From an uncultured Bacteroidales bacterium (lineage in GTDB: Bacteria; Bacteroidota; Bacteroidia; Bacteroidales; Paludibacteraceae), in the NCBI GenBank assembly GCA_902766045.1, contig CACXCA010000045.1, positions 1-61,552 on the forward strand: a DNA stretch of 61,552 bases, in the 5' to 3' direction. The notes under the pieces were generated by a model. It searched no databases and had not been told where the DNA came from. It was given only the letters and a program-made list of their open reading frames with translations. The position numbers and the translations under genes are program-made. Shown piece after piece: positions 3 to 21,419 of this stretch; within the stretch, counting starts at the first letter, position 1, and every line of letters begins with the position of its first letter.

Positions 3-85
3 TGGGTAGTGATGGATTCGAACCACCGAAGGCAAGAGCCAGCAGATTTACAGTCTGCCCCATTTGGCCACTCTGGTAACTACCC
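3..85 (-). tRNA. tRNA-Tyr (anticodon GTA)
   Basis: Read on the minus strand this is an 83-nt tRNA. The acceptor stem is GGGTAGT paired with ACTACCC and the discriminator base is A. The anticodon loop is CTGTAAA, giving GTA for tyrosine. The long variable arm (GCTCTTGCCTTC region) is typical of tRNA-Tyr, and the T arm carries GGTTCGAATCC. CCA is not encoded. It lies 35 nt downstream of tRNA-Thr and is probably co-transcribed with it. Confidence 0.95.
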
Positions 86-120
86 AAACCTCTTCTTTCA
101 AAGAACTTTTCTTTCTTCTG

Positions 121-194
121 AGCCTCTTGTCGGATTCGAACCAACGACCCCGAGATTACAAATCACGTGCTCTGGCCAACTGAGCTAAAGAGGC
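121..194 (-). tRNA. tRNA-Thr (anticodon TGT)
   Basis: Minus-strand 74-nt tRNA with acceptor stem GCCTCTT paired with AAGAGGC. The D arm has AGCTCAGTTGG, the anticodon loop is TTTGTAA (TGT, threonine), and the T arm has GGTTCGAATCC. CCA is not encoded. The anticodon stem has one apparent T-T mismatch. It is the first tRNA behind the promoter at 236-267. In many Bacteroidales this Thr-Tyr pair leads a tRNA/tuf/secE/nusG cluster, which would continue past position 1. Confidence 0.95.
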
Positions 195-11092: not shown

Positions 11093-11401
11093 TAACAGTA
11101 ATAATTACAAGAAGGTTCTATAAACACATTCTTCAGCATCCGCAAGAACCTAATAAATCAGAAACTGAATAGTTAATCTTCATGAACAACTTTACAAAGT
11201 TAAGCTAAATACTTTTCACTCTATCCGATTTCCATACAAAAAACTTCTCATCTCATATTTTTTTATTGCCGTCTTGTTCTCTAAGCGCATCAAATATTAT
11301 TTTTACAGGAGATACACATCCGAACAGATGGTTTTACCATCGTCAAAAAATTAGTTTTGAAAGTTTTTTTATCCCTCTCTGTGATTTTTTTCAAAAAAAA
11401 C

Positions 11402-11432
11402 TTTCATGATAAATTTACATACTATAAATTTG
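11402..11432 (+). promoter_or_regulatory. Promoter of the pheA operon
   Basis: The -7 box TAAATTTG (11425-11432) matches TAnnTTTG. TTTC (11402-11405) lies 19 bp upstream in the -33 position. It precedes the first leader-peptide ATG (11454) by 21 nt, which fits a short attenuator transcript start. The stretch 11093-11401 upstream shows no gene. Confidence 0.65.
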
Positions 11433-11453
11433 CATCATCAAAAATCGAAGAAT

Positions 11454-11507
11454 ATGAAGTGTAACATTTTTACATATTACTTTTACTTCTTTTACTTTAG
11501 CAGGTAA
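11454..11507 (+). CDS. Phe/Tyr leader peptide 1 (17 aa)
   Basis: Short open frame MKCNIFTYYFYFFYFSR followed by TAA. Eight aromatic codons are consecutive (Y8-F15), plus F6. Ribosome stalling at these codons when Phe-tRNA or Tyr-tRNA is scarce would control the downstream hairpins, as in classical pheA-type attenuation. GAAG lies just before the ATG. The stop codon is 2 nt before the first hairpin arm at 11510. The peptide itself probably has no function. Confidence 0.85.
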   Translation: MKCNIFTYYFYFFYFSR

Positions 11508-11509
11508 GA

Positions 11510-11582
11510 GCGGGACTTCGATTTTATAAATACAAAAGTGATGAATATTAAAATAGAGTCCCGCAGAAATGTGGGACTTTTT
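11510..11582 (+). promoter_or_regulatory. Transcription attenuator 1
   Basis: Three-arm arrangement. GCGGGACT (11510-11517) can pair with AGTCCCGC (11557-11564) as an antiterminator. Alternatively, AGTCCC/GGGACT (11557-11562 with 11573-11578) forms a terminator hairpin followed by TTTTT (to 11582). The arms are mutually exclusive because 11557-11564 is shared. A ribosome stalled in leader 1 could mask or free the first arm. The structure was read by eye; no folding energy was calculated. Confidence 0.8.
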
Positions 11583-11595
11583 CATTTCAGTGATT

Positions 11596-11661
11596 ATGAC
11601 AAAAACAATAAAACATAACGGTTTTTACTTTTATTACTTTTACTTCTTTATGAAATCATAA
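11596..11661 (+). CDS. Phe/Tyr leader peptide 2 (21 aa)
   Basis: Second short frame, beginning MTKTIKHNG and continuing with nine consecutive aromatic codons (FYFYYFYFF) before MKS and TAA. It lies 14 nt after the U tract of attenuator 1. The aromatic codon block shares a run of almost 20 identical bases with leader 1, suggesting a tandem duplication of the whole attenuator. Confidence 0.85.
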   Translation: MTKTIKHNGFYFYYFYFFMKS

Positions 11662-11722
11662 GGCGGGAAAATAGTTGTGTGAATAGATAAATTGAATCCC
11701 GCCTAACTAAGCGGGATTTTTT
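11662..11722 (+). promoter_or_regulatory. Transcription attenuator 2
   Basis: GGCGGGA (11662-11668) can pair with TCCCGCC (11697-11703). The alternative AATCCCGC/GCGGGATT hairpin (11695-11702 with 11711-11718) is followed by a T run to 11722, giving a terminator 20 nt before the pheA ATG. The layout copies attenuator 1, so the operon passes two aromatic-amino-acid checkpoints in series. Confidence 0.8.
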
Positions 11723-11741
11723 AATTAAAAAATAATAAACA

Positions 11742-12584
11742 ATGAAGAGAGTAGCTATACAAGGAATTGCTGGTTGTTTCCATGACATTGCAGCACGTGA
11801 ATATTTCAAAGGTGAAGAGATTGAGATAATAGCTTGCGAGACATTCCGAGATGTGTTTGACACCATCAAAAAAGACTCATCCATCATAGGCGCTGTGGCA
11901 ATAGAGAATACAATAGCCGGCAGTTTGCTACAAAACCACAATCTTCTCAAAGAGAGCGGTTTGAAGATCGCAGGAGAATACAAACTTCGCATCAAACATA
12001 ACTTAGTAGCTCTCCCTGGACAGAAGATATCCGACATCCACGAGGTGCACTCCCACCCGATCGCTCTTATGCAATGTGGCGACTTTCTTCAACGCAACAA
12101 GCACATCAAAGCTGTGGAAAGTGACGATACCGCATCCAGCGCCAAAAGAGTGGCTGAAGAGGGCAAAATGGGAGTAGCTGCCATTTGCGGCGAGATGGCA
12201 GCCAAGATCTACGGACTTGAAATATTGGAGAAAGGAATCGAAACTAACAAGCACAACTTCACTCGCTTCCTCATCGTGGCCGATTCATGGTTAACCGACG
12301 AGCTGAGCAAAGGAAAGAGTCCGAACAAAGCCTCTCTCGTCTTCTCTCTTCCGCATGAGCAAGGTAGCTTGGCTATGATATTGTCCATCTTATCCTACTA
12401 CGGACTCAACCTCACAAAGATTCAATCTCTCCCTATCATCGGCAGAGAGTGGGAATATCAATTTTACGTAAACCTCTCCTTCACGCAATATGTACGTTAC
12501 ACACAAGCGTTGTCGGCTATCACGCCACTGACAAAAGACTTGAAAGTATTGGGTGAATACCAAGAGGCAAATCAGAACTTATAA
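11742..12584 (+). CDS. pheA: Prephenate dehydratase
   Basis: A 280-residue monofunctional enzyme that converts prephenate to phenylpyruvate in phenylalanine synthesis. The catalytic domain (1-185) starts RVAIQGIAGCFHDIAA and includes the essential Thr of the TRF motif (KHNFTRFLIVAD). A C-terminal ACT regulatory domain follows (about 195-275, SLPHEQGSLAMILSIL ... KIQSLPI). The ACT motifs GALV and ESRP of enterobacterial enzymes appear here as GSLA and QSLP, so Phe feedback may differ. It is the first structural gene after two attenuators and lies 35 nt before the DAHP synthase gene. Confidence 0.95.
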   Translation: MKRVAIQGIAGCFHDIAAREYFKGEEIEIIACETFRDVFDTIKKDSSIIGAVAIENTIAGSLLQNHNLLKESGLKIAGEYKLRIKHNLVALPGQKISDIHEVHSHPIALMQCGDFLQRNKHIKAVESDDTASSAKRVAEEGKMGVAAICGEMAAKIYGLEILEKGIETNKHNFTRFLIVADSWLTDELSKGKSPNKASLVFSLPHEQGSLAMILSILSYYGLNLTKIQSLPIIGREWEYQFYVNLSFTQYVRYTQALSAITPLTKDLKVLGEYQEANQNL

Positions 12585-12619: not shown

Positions 12620-13678
12620 ATGGAATTAAAAAAACTAGGTCTTACAGGTGTAGAAGAAAAAAGACCATTGGTCATTGCAGGTCCATGCAGTGCAGAGACA
12701 GAAGAACAAGTGATTGCAACCGCTAAACAATTAGCCGACAACGGTGTAAAGGTGTTCCGTGCAGGAATATGGAAACCACGTACCAAGCCAGGAGGATTCG
12801 AAGGAAACGGTGTTAAGGCATTACCATGGTTACAAACTGTAAAGAAAGAGACAGGCATGCTCACTGCAACAGAAGTAGCAACAGCCAAACATGTTGAAGA
12901 AGCCCTAAAATATGGAGTGGATCTTCTTTGGATTGGTGCACGTACCACAGCTGATCCATTTGCCGTACAAGAGATTGCAGACACATTACAAGGCACAGAC
13001 GTACCCGTATTGATCAAAAACCCAGTCAACCCTGATTTGGAACTTTGGATTGGTGCATTGCAACGTCTCAACAACGCCGGCATCCGTCGTCTTGGTGCCA
13101 TCCACAGAGGATTCAGCACATACGATAAAAAGCTCTACCGCAACCTTCCTCAATGGCATATTCCTATTGAACTACGCAGACGTATTCCTGAGTTACCAAT
13201 CATCTGCGACCCAAGTCATATCTCTGGTCGTCGCGACCTTATCGCACCACTTTGTCAGCAAGCAATGGACTTGCAATTCGATGGTTTGATCATTGAATCG
13301 CACATCGATCCAGATAACGCATGGAGCGATGCTTCACAGCAAGTAACACCTGAGGTATTGAACATTATCCTCAACAACCTTGTTATTCGTGAGACCAACC
13401 AGACAACAGAGAACCTAACCGAGCTCAGAAAGCAGATTGATGAAATCGACATCAATTTGATTGAGACATTGGCAAAGAGAATGCGTATCTCTCGTGAAAT
13501 CGGAACCTACAAAAAAGAGCATGAGATGCCTATTCTACAAACCACACGTTATGATGAGATCATCAACAAGCGTGCACAACAAGGCATCGAACTATCTATG
13601 GATGGTGAATTCATGAAGGTCGTATTCGAGGCAATCCACTCAGAATCTGTTCGTCAACAAATGTTGATCATGGAATAA
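12620..13678 (+). CDS. Bifunctional DAHP synthase/chorismate mutase
   Basis: A 352-residue fusion. Residues 1-260 are a type I-beta 3-deoxy-7-phosphoheptulonate synthase (AGPCSAETEEQ, FRAGIWKPRTKPGGFEG, LIKNPVNPDLELW, CDPSHISGRRDL). Residues 270-352 are an AroQ-type chorismate mutase (LRKQIDEID, LAKRMRISREIGTYKK). It thus catalyses the first step of the shikimate pathway and the branch step to prephenate, which pheA uses. The C-terminal mutase arrangement is known from Porphyromonas and Prevotella enzymes, where the mutase domain mediates allosteric control. The operon appears to end here; no tyrA or aminotransferase gene follows. Confidence 0.95.
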   Translation: MELKKLGLTGVEEKRPLVIAGPCSAETEEQVIATAKQLADNGVKVFRAGIWKPRTKPGGFEGNGVKALPWLQTVKKETGMLTATEVATAKHVEEALKYGVDLLWIGARTTADPFAVQEIADTLQGTDVPVLIKNPVNPDLELWIGALQRLNNAGIRRLGAIHRGFSTYDKKLYRNLPQWHIPIELRRRIPELPIICDPSHISGRRDLIAPLCQQAMDLQFDGLIIESHIDPDNAWSDASQQVTPEVLNIILNNLVIRETNQTTENLTELRKQIDEIDINLIETLAKRMRISREIGTYKKEHEMPILQTTRYDEIINKRAQQGIELSMDGEFMKVVFEAIHSESVRQQMLIME

Positions 13679-14221: not shown

Positions 14222-15748
14222 CTACTCGCCATCTTTATGTATAGCACGAAGATATCCACTTCTCGTCTCATCATATACTTGTTCACATCTTTTTTCAAAA
14301 TCGTAACCATAAAACTTCTTTTCCTTTATCTTTTTATAGAACAAAGACTCGCAGTCTTTTTCGCTATTGTATAAAGACTCGCCCAAGTAGTCATTCCAAC
14401 AACGAGGAGCAGATCCACTTTTTTCGATATAAGTATCATAAGCACGAATTAGATAATACGCCCATAACACTGATCCATACCAGTTTTTCCTTCCATCCAT
14501 GTCTTTATTCAAGAAATCTTTATCGTCCTCAGGGATTTCATATTCTGCACAGTTTAGCATATATTCCACAAGACTACAATCATCCAATCCGAACTCGCCT
14601 TTTTTATCTGGATCATAACAATTGTCAGCAATATATTTTACAAAATTCTCCCTGTATATGGTATCCCCATACATATCTGTTCCTTTACGATGGAAAATTT
14701 CTTTTTTTATAAGCACTTTGTTTATCGTTGTATCTTTGTCATAATTATATTTTTCAAAAAGATCTTCTACTAAATAAAGTCCGACTTTGTCTGCAAGTAT
14801 CCAATTCAAACTAGATTTACTCTCATAAAAGATATAGTTGTTATAATGGAAAAGCATTTCAAGATCTTTCTTGTTGACCAACACTCTACCCTCTTCCATA
14901 CACTTGTCATAAATAAAATTTCTTGCTGCTATGACATCTTTGGGATGTTCGTACTTGCGGGTGGATAATCCCTTTTCCCCTTCCCATTGATATTCTGGAG
15001 TTCCTTCTATCAAATCGAAACACATAAATCTATGAAAATTAGGGAACCATACTATACCATCAGGGAAAACGAACCCTCTTTCGTGGTAAAAAACATACAT
15101 TTCGCATGAATTAAAACCGTCGTTTATATGAAAATAATTACTATTCTTTTGATAATCCAATGTGTAATTAAACTCATACCGAGGGAATGCGTCAATCAAA
15201 AATCTGGAATCTACAAGAATCTGTCTATCTTTGTCGTACCTGAAATCTTTTCTGTCACTAAAACCAAAAACATCATGCAGCTTTTTCTTGTACAAATCTT
15301 TAGACACTGGTTTGTACATGGGAAAAACTTTTGCGACCAATGTGCTAACAATTTCATACTCCCTACATAATTCATCTCTTGTTTCCATCTCAACATCAAA
15401 ATTTTGATATAGCTCTTCCTCTTCAAAGTCAAAGTCGTTTTCATAATATGAATTACTGAGAAACTCTATATCCTCTTTCCGATAGCCTTTCACTAAAATG
15501 TTTTTAAGAAACATTAACTCCTTACTGTCTAGATATTTTGACGCATCAATCATGTTTTTATCCTCCCATAAAATAGTTATACTGTCATCAATTTTTGTCC
15601 GTATAGTGTCATGCATGCCACGATATTCCTCGGCAGAGTCACTCGCGCACTCAGCATTTTCTTTAACGTTATTTCTACTTGTATTCGAATCTGTACATCC
15701 AGAATACAAGGCGAAAATAGAAATAACAATAAAAACATTACTTTTCAT
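14222..15748 (-). CDS. Lipoprotein, probable immunity partner of the GH19/peptidase effector
   Basis: A 508-residue predicted lipoprotein. The signal peptide (SNVFIVISIFALYSGC) has its lipobox Cys at about residue 18, followed by a charged Asn/Ser-rich stretch. The rest is acidic and rich in Tyr, Asp and Lys, with no motif I recognise. Its start overlaps the end of the 1893-aa effector by 11 nt, which implies translational coupling. T6SS cell-wall hydrolases normally come with a periplasmic immunity protein encoded directly downstream, so I infer immunity. The size is large for an immunity protein, so an accessory role remains possible. Confidence 0.6.
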   Translation of the reverse strand: MKSNVFIVISIFALYSGCTDSNTSRNNVKENAECASDSAEEYRGMHDTIRTKIDDSITILWEDKNMIDASKYLDSKELMFLKNILVKGYRKEDIEFLSNSYYENDFDFEEEELYQNFDVEMETRDELCREYEIVSTLVAKVFPMYKPVSKDLYKKKLHDVFGFSDRKDFRYDKDRQILVDSRFLIDAFPRYEFNYTLDYQKNSNYFHINDGFNSCEMYVFYHERGFVFPDGIVWFPNFHRFMCFDLIEGTPEYQWEGEKGLSTRKYEHPKDVIAARNFIYDKCMEEGRVLVNKKDLEMLFHYNNYIFYESKSSLNWILADKVGLYLVEDLFEKYNYDKDTTINKVLIKKEIFHRKGTDMYGDTIYRENFVKYIADNCYDPDKKGEFGLDDCSLVEYMLNCAEYEIPEDDKDFLNKDMDGRKNWYGSVLWAYYLIRAYDTYIEKSGSAPRCWNDYLGESLYNSEKDCESLFYKKIKEKKFYGYDFEKRCEQVYDETRSGYLRAIHKDGE

Positions 15749-18700
15749 TTTTCCCTTCTTCTTTTTCTTTTATTTCTACATAATTAGCCAACCCCCATGG
15801 TTTATCATCAAGTGGGCCACAAAGGATTGGTGTTCTAGATATTACTCCTTCTTTTGTAATAATAAGATCGCCCTTGGAATCTCTGTTAACTTTATAATAT
15901 TTTAAACCTCCCAAATGAATATGGTTATTATGATTTGTGTCATTTTTTGCACCTTTGCGCTGATACTCTGGGAGAGTACCACAAAGAATATTTTGGAATC
16001 CGTATCCTTTTGCGATTTCTATAATTTTTTCATCATCACTTTTTTTCCCATAACAGAAATCAAATGCCATACCGTTTCTATGAGTCTGACTGGGAAAACC
16101 TGTTCCTAATTTATCCACATTTCCTGTACCACTCCTACAAAATTTTCCTTCAAAAGTGAAATTCGGTTCTGTTGTATTGTCTTCTTTCTGACTCCGACAA
16201 TAAGAATGGGGCGAATATACCGGTCTAACATCACTCTTATCATCATTATATGCATCTTTGTACAATTTTCCCACCTCCGCTAATTTAGTCGCGCCATATT
16301 CAGCTAATATACCTATTGCGATAGCCATAATCGTCGGATTAGTATAACATCGTTCTGTTTGTGTTAAATCAACTCTATATGAAATAAAAACTTCATTTTC
16401 AACATAAAAAGAGAGTGTACCTGGTTGGTTTACTACGTCAATGATAGCTTCATCACCATTATTAGGAACTTCATCTATTCTTACCACCTCTGTATGTCTT
16501 CCATCTGTCTTATATAATTTATTTGTAATACCTTTTTTTAAACTACTATCCTTAGCATTAACAATCACATATTCCGGCACGCCATTGGATCTATACTTTA
16601 CATAAACATCTTTCCCATCTATCTTTTTAAGTTCCTTGTTGTACGTATAAATTAACTCCGTATTTTTTCTATTTTCGTCTTTTACTCCCACTGGATTTTC
16701 ATTAAAATAAAAGCCATCACGAATGATCTTTCTTTCTGCAACCAGATAAGAAGCCTTTTCTGTGTGATATACATATCTGTATATATTTTTATTTGTTATA
16801 TTCAATGGGATATGCTTTTCTATACGACGATTACTATAGATGTGATATGTAATTATATCTGTTTCATCCGTTCTCACCGATTTACATTGACAATTTTTCA
16901 AATCAAATGCTTCGAACATCAAATCTTTAAAAACGAGATGTTTCCCCCTATGATTTCTTAGTAATGAAACATTTTCGTCGCCAACCTTTATTTTCATACT
17001 GGTAGCTGGGTTATTCCCCATTTTTCTGGTCACAATGTCTATTCCATGTTTGACATCACTATCATCTCCGACTTTTTTAAAATCAATTTTATTTTTATCA
17101 ACGTATTCATCGCATATATTCCGCATATTTAACCCTTTCCAAACGAAAAAAGCCATTGATGAAACCGTTGCCACTCTTATGTCATTAACAACCAAATCTG
17201 GATTATTCTCCAAATCCACATTATATCCAACGCTTCGCATGATATTTTGTATAGAAGTATATGCTCCTCTGCCTGTAATTTGGCAAAGTCCCCTACCTCT
17301 AAAATTCCATCCGTCATCTCCCCCTTTGTTTCCTAAATCTTTTCTATCACTATATACATAATTTGCCAACTTTTTAGAGTCACATGAATGAGAATGTATT
17401 TTGTCATCCCATTTGTCTTTCCCTATGTAATCTTTTTTAAATATATAGGATGTAATTCCCTCCTCCACTACAGAGTCTATCTTGGAAAATGAGGCAGTGT
17501 CAATATCTTTATTACTAGGAGTATATTTAAAACAAGAGGATGTATTAGTTGCTCCATATTCCACACACAAAGACGGATTTCCTTTGAAACGAGAGAACGT
17601 CCCGCTATAGTATAAATTAGCTACTGAATAATTAAATCCTTCACCTTTTCTAATTGTTAAATTAGGTCCGGATTCAACATACACAGCGGCAAAGAATACA
17701 GCCTTTGCCCAACATGAATCCATGCATAATTTATATTGATAGTCACAATAAGCTTGAGCGATGATTTTGAGTTTATTTTCATCCACCTTATCAAATACTT
17801 CTTTTAACCTTTTAGCCATAAGCTCATACTCTTCATGACAATTTTTACATGCGCTTTGAGACTCCCCATTGTTCCTCTCCCCATCCGTCAGTTCCTCTCC
17901 CACTATCACAGGAGCAATGATTGCCAGCGTAGAGTTTAGACGCTGCACCTCTTTATCTTTGCCCACTTTCAACTGCCAAAGATAACTGCGAACCTTCGAT
18001 TTAAGGTTATCATCACAAGAAGTGTCACCTTTAGAAATAGTATAGACCTCTTCATCTTGTGTAATAACAGCGGTGTCGCTATCATCACACTCTGACTCAG
18101 TCTGTTGAGATGCATTGGTTGACGGAACAGTCTGTGAATCAGTTGGTGCAGTAGTTGGTTGTGGTGCATCCGTATTTTGCGGAGCATCCTGCATAGGTCG
18201 CTGATGCACTTCCTCTCTTTGTTCATTATTCAACATGGCACGACGAGACCCTTCCATATTTCGTTCTCCATTTCCCTCCTGTCGATGAGGAGGCATATTT
18301 GCATCTCGTCCCCCATCTCCCCCTTGCCGATGAGGTGGCATATTTGCATCTCGACCCTCATTTATTTCTGGCCGTTGAGTCGCATCTGTGTTTTGTTCTT
18401 CATTTTGCACAGATGGTTGTTCTTCATCTCCTGATAGTACTTCCTGAGAATCATTCGCAGGAGCGCTCTCACATCTCTTCTTAAATTTCATATTAAAGAC
18501 ATCATCCTGCGTTTGCGGATATTGATATACCACATTCTCATCTAATTTCACTCTAAAATAGAATAACCGAGGATTGGGATTCTCTCCATGTGCACTACCA
18601 TCCGTGAAAAGATTACTCAAATTAACTTTCACTTTTCCATACTCATCTGACTCAAATCTTTCATCGTCATTTGTAAATATTTCAATCAACTTGTCGGAGT

Positions 18701-21419
18701 CTCCTTTTTGATTATTTTCCCAAAGTTCCACCGAGATTCTATCCATTTTATTCATGTAGTTATGCGTAACAAGCATGATATAAATCTTATCTCCATACTT
18801 CATCACTGATTTCTGTGGTTTCCCAGATCTGCCAGAGAAAAAGCCAGACATTTCCATTTCGCTTGTTAAAATCAATGGAGTCCTTTCCTTCTTAAACCAA
18901 TGCAACCCTTTTTGTTCCAAATTTTCTATTTTTAAGTTTGGTATATTCATAAGAGACGCATCTATCATAATACTTTTCCTTCCTTCAAGTTTGACAACGT
19001 CTTCAGTGAACATCAACTCTATCCTTGCTGTTCCTTTTTCATCGAATCTAGCATCATCCGTCAATTTTTCTATAAGAGCATTTTCCCCCATGTCCCACAG
19101 AAACAGACGCACCTTTTGGAGTAACTCATTACTATTCCTTAAATCTTTCCATGCTGGTATATTTATTTCAAGATAAATTTTTTCTTCAAATCCGACTTTA
19201 CTCACCTTTTTATGATATTTATCAACAAATTGCCACGTCTCAATTATGGGTTTAAGCACCTCAAAATTGTATTTTTCTTTTACAAAAGAAAGACAATGAC
19301 TTCCCACTTCACCCGTACCAAAATTTAAAGAAATTTCATCTGTTGTATCCTTTTGAACTTTCCCGTCCAACTTATATTCATACGCACCATCTTTATCTAA
19401 ATAATCATCATAGTAAAACTTAACTTTAAAACGATATTGAATGCCAGCATAAAGAATATCGCGGACTGGATTAACAATGCCGATAGCAGCATTACGTTGT
19501 ATTATTAACGTACGAGAATACTTTTTCCGTCCATTATTATAGTTACTTAAATAATCGTCGCAACATTGATCCAAAGATAGAGTAATTGTAACCTCACCTT
19601 CTTTTTCGAGTTTTAATTCACAAGACTCTCCACGGCATACCACATTATATTTTTTTATAGGTTCCTCAACATTCTTTTTCTCCTCTTGTTTTCCCCCCCC
19701 CTTACTTTTCTTATTATCTTTTTTCTTAATCTCTATTTCCTTATCTTCAATTTTCCATTCCGCATACCTCAGGACATTAGACTTACCGTAACTATTCATC
19801 GGACGCACCAACAAATATATGGTTGTTTCAGGTCTGACCATAGGAGGGACCTCTTCTCTCCCCATTTTATCTAGCGATACAGATGCAAATACAATACTAT
19901 TAACTTGCTTGATTTTTAAATACTTAATATCTACGACACCAGCCTCTCCTATTTTAGGTTTCATAGGTATTAGATCGGACAAAATCGACATTTTTCCCTC
20001 TGTCAATAAAATAGTAATATCAATATTAGGATAAAAACATGACACTTTTAACGAAAAATGATATTCTGTATTGACACTATACTTTAGAATCCAATCTGTA
20101 TGAATATACTCATTAACGAGAATACAAAAATGTTCTTTCCTATCTAACGGTTCTTTCCTATCTATCGGTACTGCAGTACGAACTACAAATTCTATCTCAT
20201 CAGAAAATCTATGAACATATCTTTCAACCTCAACTTCTGTATATTGCTGGGGTCTTCCAAAATCTCTTGTTGTGCTGGCATAGCCCCCCCCCTGTGTAAA
20301 ATAGCATTCTTTGCTTTTTATATTAACCTTGAATTTTTCAGGAATATTGGCACCAAAGTGGTAGTTACTTTTTAATACGTCTGCTTGCTTATTCGAATTT
20401 TGAATAGATTGATAGGTTATATTGGGATTATCTTGTTTCAACGGGACACTTTCTTTAAACTTCTCCTTAGAATTTAAAGCAGGGTCTCCCTCCATTTTCA
20501 CGTCCAAAATACGATTATGTTCCAACACTTCCACCTTTATCGCACAATTTACATCTTTTGGAATTCCGTTTTTTCCCCCTTCAATAGTTTTTTTATGATC
20601 AATCTTTTTGTATCCTTCTACCATAGCGTTTGATCCACCCTCAACATAATAAACACCAGGCTCTTTAAGCTTTAAATTAAACGGAGAACATGTCATTTTA
20701 TATAACACAAGTTTATCCAAAAATATTTTTTCTTCGGAAATTGGTTTCTGGTTTTTATTTTTTTGCTGTTTTTGTACTATCCCCTTTCTTCTTTTAGAAA
20801 CAGCCCAATTGACAAATTCTGTTGCTTTCAATTCAACATTACCTTTTTTATAAGCATAAAGAGTAATTAATTCATTAGGCCTAACATACATCGAATCCTT
20901 AAACTTGTATCTTTTCTTTTCTCCAAGTTTTGTCGCAGAAACACTATATATAGATTGAGGCTGGGGTTGTGTCTTTTTCCCCTGATTGACAGGAAAAGTC
21001 ACCTGTAACGCAAATGGGAAATTACAAAGTGCCTCCATCTTTACGTCAAAATCTCCTGCAGAGACACCTTGTGTTTGTCCAGGAAACACACATGAAATCT
21101 CACCTGCAAAAACTGGACATTTCATTTTACTACTTTCTGTGATTGCATTTTTTTTACCCTGTGGTTCTGTTGTATTAGGAGTCCATACTCCATTTGCATA
21201 ATTGCATATAGGTGCCTGTTTATTAGGATTCTGCATGCAATTCACGAAAGGAGACGTCGCAATTTTGAATGTAACATCCTTATCTGTCACAATTGCTTTT
21301 CCCTGAGCCATTATCGTTTGATTGGAAGTGACAGCTATCTGACAAGGTGCACCTCCATATTGACATTTGTAGATTGCGCCATCTACCGCATATTGATCAC
21401 CACTATTTTTCTTAGCCAT
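15738..21419 (-). CDS. PAAR-like T6SS effector with GH19-like and LAS-type peptidase domains
   Basis: A 1893-residue probable T6SS cargo. Residues 1-130 form a Cys-containing PAAR-like (DUF4280) tip domain (YAVDGAIYKCQYGG, APICNYANG, KCPVFAGE) expected to cap VgrG. Residues about 150-980 are beta-rich, repeated immunoglobulin-like segments. Residues 980-1130 are a Pro/Gln/Asn-rich linker containing two ANMPPHRQ copies. Residues 1230-1440 resemble GH19 chitinase/lysozyme (FFAAVYVESGP, NYVYSDRKDLGN, WNFRGRGLCQITGR). Residues 1700-1840 carry an HxxxxxxD...HxH pattern (SQTHRNGMAFDF, NHIHLGG) as in LAS/M15 murein peptidases. It could therefore cut both glycan and peptide of peptidoglycan in the periplasm. 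It lies just after vgrG1 and a 281-aa gene. Two G9 tracts interrupt the frame region. Confidence 0.8.
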   Translation of the reverse strand: MAKKNSGDQYAVDGAIYKCQYGGAPCQIAVTSNQTIMAQGKAIVTDKDVTFKIATSPFVNCMQNPNKQAPICNYANGVWTPNTTEPQGKKNAITESSKMKCPVFAGEISCVFPGQTQGVSAGDFDVKMEALCNFPFALQVTFPVNQGKKTQPQPQSIYSVSATKLGEKKRYKFKDSMYVRPNELITLYAYKKGNVELKATEFVNWAVSKRRKGIVQKQQKNKNQKPISEEKIFLDKLVLYKMTCSPFNLKLKEPGVYYVEGGSNAMVEGYKKIDHKKTIEGGKNGIPKDVNCAIKVEVLEHNRILDVKMEGDPALNSKEKFKESVPLKQDNPNITYQSIQNSNKQADVLKSNYHFGANIPEKFKVNIKSKECYFTQGGGYASTTRDFGRPQQYTEVEVERYVHRFSDEIEFVVRTAVPIDRKEPLDRKEHFCILVNEYIHTDWILKYSVNTEYHFSLKVSCFYPNIDITILLTEGKMSILSDLIPMKPKIGEAGVVDIKYLKIKQVNSIVFASVSLDKMGREEVPPMVRPETTIYLLVRPMNSYGKSNVLRYAEWKIEDKEIEIKKKDNKKSKGGGKQEEKKNVEEPIKKYNVVCRGESCELKLEKEGEVTITLSLDQCCDDYLSNYNNGRKKYSRTLIIQRNAAIGIVNPVRDILYAGIQYRFKVKFYYDDYLDKDGAYEYKLDGKVQKDTTDEISLNFGTGEVGSHCLSFVKEKYNFEVLKPIIETWQFVDKYHKKVSKVGFEEKIYLEINIPAWKDLRNSNELLQKVRLFLWDMGENALIEKLTDDARFDEKGTARIELMFTEDVVKLEGRKSIMIDASLMNIPNLKIENLEQKGLHWFKKERTPLILTSEMEMSGFFSGRSGKPQKSVMKYGDKIYIMLVTHNYMNKMDRISVELWENNQKGDSDKLIEIFTNDDERFESDEYGKVKVNLSNLFTDGSAHGENPNPRLFYFRVKLDENVVYQYPQTQDDVFNMKFKKRCESAPANDSQEVLSGDEEQPSVQNEEQNTDATQRPEINEGRDANMPPHRQGGDGGRDANMPPHRQEGNGERNMEGSRRAMLNNEQREEVHQRPMQDAPQNTDAPQPTTAPTDSQTVPSTNASQQTESECDDSDTAVITQDEEVYTISKGDTSCDDNLKSKVRSYLWQLKVGKDKEVQRLNSTLAIIAPVIVGEELTDGERNNGESQSACKNCHEEYELMAKRLKEVFDKVDENKLKIIAQAYCDYQYKLCMDSCWAKAVFFAAVYVESGPNLTIRKGEGFNYSVANLYYSGTFSRFKGNPSLCVEYGATNTSSCFKYTPSNKDIDTASFSKIDSVVEEGITSYIFKKDYIGKDKWDDKIHSHSCDSKKLANYVYSDRKDLGNKGGDDGWNFRGRGLCQITGRGAYTSIQNIMRSVGYNVDLENNPDLVVNDIRVATVSSMAFFVWKGLNMRNICDEYVDKNKIDFKKVGDDSDVKHGIDIVTRKMGNNPATSMKIKVGDENVSLLRNHRGKHLVFKDLMFEAFDLKNCQCKSVRTDETDIITYHIYSNRRIEKHIPLNITNKNIYRYVYHTEKASYLVAERKIIRDGFYFNENPVGVKDENRKNTELIYTYNKELKKIDGKDVYVKYRSNGVPEYVIVNAKDSSLKKGITNKLYKTDGRHTEVVRIDEVPNNGDEAIIDVVNQPGTLSFYVENEVFISYRVDLTQTERCYTNPTIMAIAIGILAEYGATKLAEVGKLYKDAYNDDKSDVRPVYSPHSYCRSQKEDNTTEPNFTFEGKFCRSGTGNVDKLGTGFPSQTHRNGMAFDFCYGKKSDDEKIIEIAKGYGFQNILCGTLPEYQRKGAKNDTNHNNHIHLGGLKYYKVNRDSKGDLIITKEGVISRTPILCGPLDDKPWGLANYVEIKEKEEGKNEK
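19693..19701 (-). repeat. G9 homopolymer within the effector gene (tract 1)
   Basis: Nine consecutive C on the plus strand (nine G in the coding strand), in frame as part of SKGGGKQEE at about residue 575. A run this long is rare in AT-rich DNA and is prone to slipped-strand length change, which would frameshift the effector before its enzymatic domains. Confidence 0.85.
20284..20292 (-). repeat. G9 homopolymer within the effector gene (tract 2)
   Basis: A second nine-base G tract in the same coding strand, encoding the Gly-Gly-Gly of FTQGGGYAS at about residue 378. It lies 582 nt upstream of tract 1 in the gene. Both are currently in frame. Confidence 0.85.

Follow-up and report, generated by a model that had tools for sequence, protein, structure and literature searches.

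Predicted Phe/Tyr leader-peptide attenuators in series upstream of pheA in Bacteroidales

Introduction

Leader-peptide attenuation is known mostly from Proteobacteria, and the closest described counterparts of the locus reported here are pheL-pheA and trpL of E. coli, where a leader open reading frame (ORF) carries codons for the end product and the position of the ribosome on it sets the choice between antiterminator and terminator. Tandem attenuation has been described for Salmonella mgtCBR, in which, according to the available text, two short ORFs in one leader RNA signal ATP and proline and act additively, an arrangement contrasted there with the metE leader and its two intrinsic terminators (PMC3641672). 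In Flavobacterium psychrophilum, a structured 5' element without an Rfam hit, conserved in Flavobacteriaceae, precedes pheA, and clues of leader-peptide attenuation have been noted before amino-acid operons; the available parts of that report mention no tandem (2021; PMC9723704). The accessible portion of work on B. thetaiotaomicron describes long 5' UTRs that contain short ORFs resembling leader peptides (PMC7366714), and a 2010 survey, as far as its available text goes, placed much the same emphasis on Proteobacteria for its time (PMC2965389). In a literature search thin on subscription papers, no tandem amino-acid leader in Bacteroidota was found by title.

Here we describe the region upstream of pheA in an uncultured Bacteroidales bacterium (Paludibacteraceae), analyzed within a window that comprises the whole 61,552-nt stretch of contig CACXCA010000045.1. 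The locus resembles pheL-pheA and trpL in its leader organization, but unlike these one-module leaders it has two modules, with mixed Phe and Tyr codons, and unlike mgtCBR, as that system is presented in the available text, its modules have the same codon mix and an intrinsic terminator each (PMC3641672).

Results

Two predicted attenuator modules precede pheA

The preliminary description placed two complete leader-peptide attenuators in series before pheA, and our analysis bore this out, as a Phe/Tyr (F/Y) leader, an antiterminator and an intrinsic terminator were found in each module (all on the + strand). Leader peptide 1 (MKCNIFTYYFYFFYFSR, 11454..11507), which has counterparts in relatives, contains eight consecutive F/Y codons, leader peptide 2 (MTKTIKHNGFYFYYFYFFMKS, 11596..11661) contains nine, and each leader has five F and four Y. 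These are the sole ORFs in the window (ATG start, at most 45 codons, both strands) with at least eight F/Y per nine codons, and none of 4000 dinucleotide shuffles of 11401-11741 contained even one such ORF. In module 1, antiterminator strand 2 (GCGGGACTT, 11510..11518; assigned from folding, relatives and a permutation test) pairs with strand 3 (11556-11564), which is also the 5' arm of terminator T1 (11555..11582). In module 2, strand 2 (AGGCGGGA, 11661..11668; folding, relatives and covariation) pairs with strand 3 at 11697-11704, the 5' arm of terminator T2 (11694..11722). Both terminators, called from sequence and folding, consist of a GC-rich stem and a T tract, and 19 nt separate the end of T2 from the pheA start. 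Folding energies were -16.8 kcal/mol for T1 (z -6.5) and -13.6 kcal/mol for T2 (z -4.1), and with strand 4 absent the antiterminators of modules 1 and 2 reached -18.3 (z -5.5) and -16.7 (z -4.9).

The regulated gene, pheA (11742..12584, +), was identified by a domain match to prephenate dehydratase (PF00800). The next same-strand gene (12620..13678, +) encodes a DAHP synthase fused to a chorismate mutase (DAHPS-CM; PF00793 and PF01817) and, judging from the spacing, probably shares the pheA operon. This fusion serves both Phe and Tyr synthesis. A branch-point operon as the target fits a mixed F/Y sensor. The tyrA gene of the same genome sits on another contig, and no F/Y block was present in the 300 nt upstream of it, where the maximum was three F/Y in nine codons. 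A search of the genome for runs of five His codons gave six matches, of which five loci were read with no leader-like case before a his gene; one match (L155) lies inside a transporter-like ORF, in another reading frame. Elsewhere in the window, a 1893-aa ORF (15738-21419, -) carries an N-terminal DUF4280 domain (PF14107); DUF4280 proteins are often cargo-like components of type VI secretion in Bacteroidetes.

No known Rfam RNA, T-box and riboswitch included, reached its gathering score in the window apart from two tRNAs, whose genes occupy positions 3-194 (-) at its left end. The Phe_leader family (RF01859) matched each module over its full length with 26.9 bits (11453-11585) and 28.3 bits (11607-11724), below the gathering cut-off of 55 bits, and scores at this level were also obtained from other leader families and from unrelated RNAs. 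Assignment to a known RNA family was rejected on these weak matches.

A promoter-like TAnnTTTG element (TAAATTTG, 11425..11432, +), which we take to be the Bacteroidetes -7 type promoter element, precedes leader 1, with TAGTTTTG further upstream. Of 114 single and first modules, 108 have TAnnTTTG no more than 75 nt from the leader ATG, vs 4.6% of mononucleotide shuffles. All 11 tandem loci examined, the window included, have the motif upstream of module 1, and in none does it occur between the two leaders. On these grounds, with TAnnTTTG the only element sought in relatives, we rejected a second promoter for module 2, and by this motif argument module 2 would be reached solely by polymerase that has passed T1.

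Mock-ribosome folding follows the classical logic

The antiterminators had been described as mutually exclusive with the terminators, and folding supported this: they form without strand 4, and folding with a mock ribosome reproduces the classical logic. Before strand 4 was included, antiterminator probability in the window was 0.00 in both modules with the ribosome at the stop codon, and 0.84-0.96 (module 1) and 0.99 (module 2) with the ribosome stalled at the F/Y codons. The controls showed the same contrast, E. coli trpL giving 0.00 at the stop and 0.90-0.91 when stalled, and pheL 0.00 at the stop, 0.98 at six of its seven Phe codons and 0.36 at the last. The stop-codon value of 0.00 comes largely from the footprint over strand 2; where the stop lies beyond strand 2, the ribosome was placed at strand 2.

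Across relatives, the stalled median was at least 0.5 in 18/18 first modules vs 12/19 second modules (near-copies included), and 17 of the 19 second modules reached 0.5 at their best stall position. Every second single module was dropped from this survey, and the second modules of G011 and G421, the first of G581 and both of G613 were absent from it. At full length and equilibrium, the terminator won in all states of the window modules, with the antiterminator at 0.40 at most, so the choice between the two structures would need to be kinetic. The trpL terminator also won under these conditions; unlike the window's, the pheL antiterminator can win at full length, and did so at four of seven stall positions. 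A further difference from E. coli is that the window antiterminators form with no ribosome present (0.95 in module 1, 0.96-0.99 in module 2), whereas the E. coli ones do not. Without a ribosome, the antiterminator formed in 17/18 first modules, 7/19 second modules (the window's included) and 38/49 single modules.

Leaders and hairpins are conserved in relatives

Most Bacteroidales have one F/Y leader upstream of pheA. With a candidate leader defined as a short ORF with at least five F/Y in nine codons, one was present before pheA in 75 of 80 named Bacteroidales loci, these 80 being the best-scoring loci retained by the search. Three of the other five start near a contig end but show the end of a module, one has a codon block without an in-frame ATG, GTG or TTG, and one shows nothing. 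Two families of the same class but other orders (f114 and f117) had one F/Y leader before pheA in all seven model-matched loci. After genomes recorded twice had been reduced to one entry, 128 modules were collected, and a terminator was located by script in 122 of them. An uncultured Bacteroides (L072) retains an F/Y codon block with its terminator 170 nt upstream of pheA, but between the previous stop and this block there is no in-frame ATG, GTG or TTG, which may be a natural start-codon loss. In many Bacteroides loci, L064 among them, the leader does not end ahead of antiterminator strand 2 but continues across it, with a tail resembling KVEREFVC(V/I)K.

Conservation of the leader frames, antiterminators and terminators, on which the earlier claim had been made to depend, was upheld in relatives by the tandem loci read and by permutation tests. 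Strand 2 and strand 3 paired better within their own module than across species in the antiterminator test, with 0/5000 permutations matching this for 57 first or single modules and 40/5000 for seven second modules. Near-identical modules (80-85% rules) were removed before the pre-ATG, antiterminator, helix A and downstream-pairing permutation tests, and the six modules without a found terminator were excluded from the antiterminator test and the large folding survey. Compensatory changes support both the terminator and the antiterminator of module 2; one antiterminator pair is unpaired in 7 of 18 sequences, and the T2 stem is 85.8% paired in 18 second modules.

Each module also has a helix of its own. 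Directly before leader 1, the 5' strand of helix A (AAAATCGAAG, 11441..11450, +) pairs with a 3' strand (CTTCGATTTT, 11516..11525, +), and in 17 representatives of the window's clade none of 10000 permutations equaled its own-versus-cross pairing, with 4 of the 17 not above their own cross mean. Helix A shares three bases with the antiterminator strand and crosses the antiterminator helix, so that it may serve as a protector or belong to a pseudoknot. Across the order, the pre-ATG duplex test gave a weak signal (own mean -12.18 vs -11.42 in permutations, sd 0.27). In single modules outside the clade (e.g., L048, L140 and L145), the leader codons UUUACAUA form a helix with UAUGUAAA, which lies beyond strand 2; for 40 representatives, not all of them above their cross mean, this pairing was equaled in 0/5000 own-versus-cross permutations, and L145 carries the pairing-preserving changes CGCAUAC/GUAUGCG in this leader/downstream helix.

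Module 2 is marked by the hairpin CTTTATG/CATAAGG (11646..11663, +; arms 11646-11652 and 11657-11663), which runs from the end of the F/Y block to the start of antiterminator strand 2, overlaps that strand and is a candidate protector. RNAalifold recovered it unprompted from 11 second modules, and 97.6% of its cells are paired in 18 sequences that cover five families and also the divergent G421, in which the motif search for this hairpin had no match. Of the 21 second-type modules examined, a set without the unlike second module of G613, 20 carry the hairpin. The 3' arm falls in all three reading frames (11, 6 and 3 cases) and the stop codon position varies, so that a pairing kept without a fixed frame appears to be conserved as RNA, for an RNA function. 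No pair in the seven-pair core was altered on both sides, and covariation is thus silent on this hairpin.

The tandem recurs in several families

The tandem was read in at least 22 genomes of seven families (families being group codes), a lower bound because draws overlapped, filters were strict and only part of the matches were read. Of the 16 genomes in the genus of the window, 11 have the tandem, two have the module 1 type alone (G005 and G012), two have module 2 alone (G007 and G008) and one had no pheA match. At the two loci with module 2 alone (L021 in G007 and L016 in G008), module 1 has been lost and a promoter-like TATCTTTG precedes the lone module 2. When 358 genomes of the family were scanned with the hairpin pattern, 12 from two genera matched and the reversed control gave none; both genomes of the second genus have the tandem. 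A module 2 covariance model matched 22/247 genomes of the order (E up to 0.01), and a refined model matched 48/392 of the order and 8/247 of the phylum (E up to 0.001); 14 matches of the first model and 38 of the refined one were read as loci.

Nine more genomes with the tandem came from these loci, spread over six other families (G531; G440 and G525; G592; G581, G505 and G414; G421; G613). The other loci returned have one aromatic leader adjoining pheA, G637 (70 bits) included, apart from one locus without a readable pheA, and G054 has a second, weak F-rich ORF further upstream of its pheA-adjacent leader. The second module of G613 is unlike the others and may be independent in origin. In the scripted genomes, terminators were found for every tandem module except the second of G011, with no row given for the first of G581 and the second of G421; the first hairpin of the G581 tandem has no direct T tract. 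The tandem recurs in several families and is no accident of one genome.

A recent duplication is not supported

The near-identical codon blocks had suggested that the module was duplicated; a recent copy is not supported, and module 2 has its own hairpin in five families, the window's among them. Between the two blocks of the window, 18 bases are identical (1.3% in a codon-usage simulation). The corresponding number is 9-13 in the ten other tandem loci examined and 8-15 when module 1 and module 2 are taken from different genomes, and among 104 single modules elsewhere 10 match module 2 of the window at 18 bases or more, so that the sharing is no sign of recent duplication. Module 1 resembles the common single leader and module 2 stands apart through its hairpin. 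A fresh duplication of module 1 was rejected on the absence of the 18-base block in the ten other tandems and the presence of the module 2 signature in other families.

On a tree of 84 PheA proteins, hand-picked and with two pairs representing the same genome twice, the tandem label changes at least seven times by well supported branches and nine times by parsimony, and it is clustered, with 0/500 shuffles as low. We favor one old origin followed by repeated losses, since the module 2 hairpin is common to distant families, with repeated gain or transfer as the alternative.

Discussion

We consider it very probable that pheA, and probably also the DAHPS-CM gene, is controlled by two ribosome-mediated transcription attenuators in series. 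With ample charged tRNA-Phe and tRNA-Tyr, the leading ribosome would reach the end of leader 1 and cover antiterminator strand 2, and T1 would then halt transcription. If either charged tRNA ran short, the ribosome would stall in the F/Y block, strand 2 would pair with strand 3, T1 would not form and polymerase would proceed to leader 2, for a second round of the same test at T2. Given a single promoter and no further start, the expression of pheA would be the product of two read-through probabilities, which would give deeper repression and a steeper response than a single module. That transcription ends at T1 and T2, that ribosomes stall and that the response is multiplicative are inferred, and the sharper repression by two checkpoints that was expected earlier would likewise follow from the single promoter motif. 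Counted against the series are the many relatives with one module and the two congeners with the second alone.

Those same relatives could also indicate that one module works and the other is a decaying leftover, as could the first hairpin of G581 with its missing direct T tract. One-module relatives are common, and both kinds occur in the window's genus, but terminators are kept in nearly all scripted tandem modules and the module 2 hairpin is almost fully paired in distant families, which makes decay improbable. A role of module 2 in pheA translation or pausing instead of termination would suit the short distance from T2 to the pheA start and the less clear-cut folding of second modules, yet T2 has the same GC-rich stem and T tract as T1 and its stem is largely paired across second modules, and we regard such a role as very improbable. 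Hardly credible, finally, is a split in which one module reads Phe and the other Tyr. Two sensors before a branch-point operon would permit it, the preliminary description had offered it as a possibility, and mgtCBR, in the available text, provides a two-signal precedent (PMC3641672), but F/Y codon ratios in the family are alike, at 1.16 for 11 first and 1.14 for 13 second modules (near-copies included), and both leaders of the window have the same F/Y make-up. On codons alone, which is what these counts compare, neither separate reading nor a two-signal tandem of the mgtCBR type is supported.

Rather unlikely, though worth setting beside the series reading, is that the two modules divide the labor in an ancient two-stage checkpoint. 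Module 1 would sense starvation and leak when leader 1 is untranslated, and module 2, with its hairpin, would stop polymerase unless a ribosome was truly stalled on the F/Y codons; if true, the tandem would tell a real Phe/Tyr shortage from a general loss of translation. The trend in antiterminator formation without a ribosome, frequent in first and infrequent in second modules, is in line with this, but of the 12 second modules that are protected, 8 come from closely related members of one genus, module 2 of the window is itself unprotected and most single modules leak too.

The preferred reading of two same-signal attenuators in series would represent classical ribosome-mediated attenuation in an old tandem form, for which our literature search found no description. 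The widespread Bacteroidales Phe/Tyr leader and its old serial form in several families make it possible to ask, by natural comparison, what is gained when the same signal is read at a second checkpoint, the possible gains being depth, steepness or protection against uncoupled translation, and relatives with both modules, the first alone or the second alone provide ready-made comparisons.
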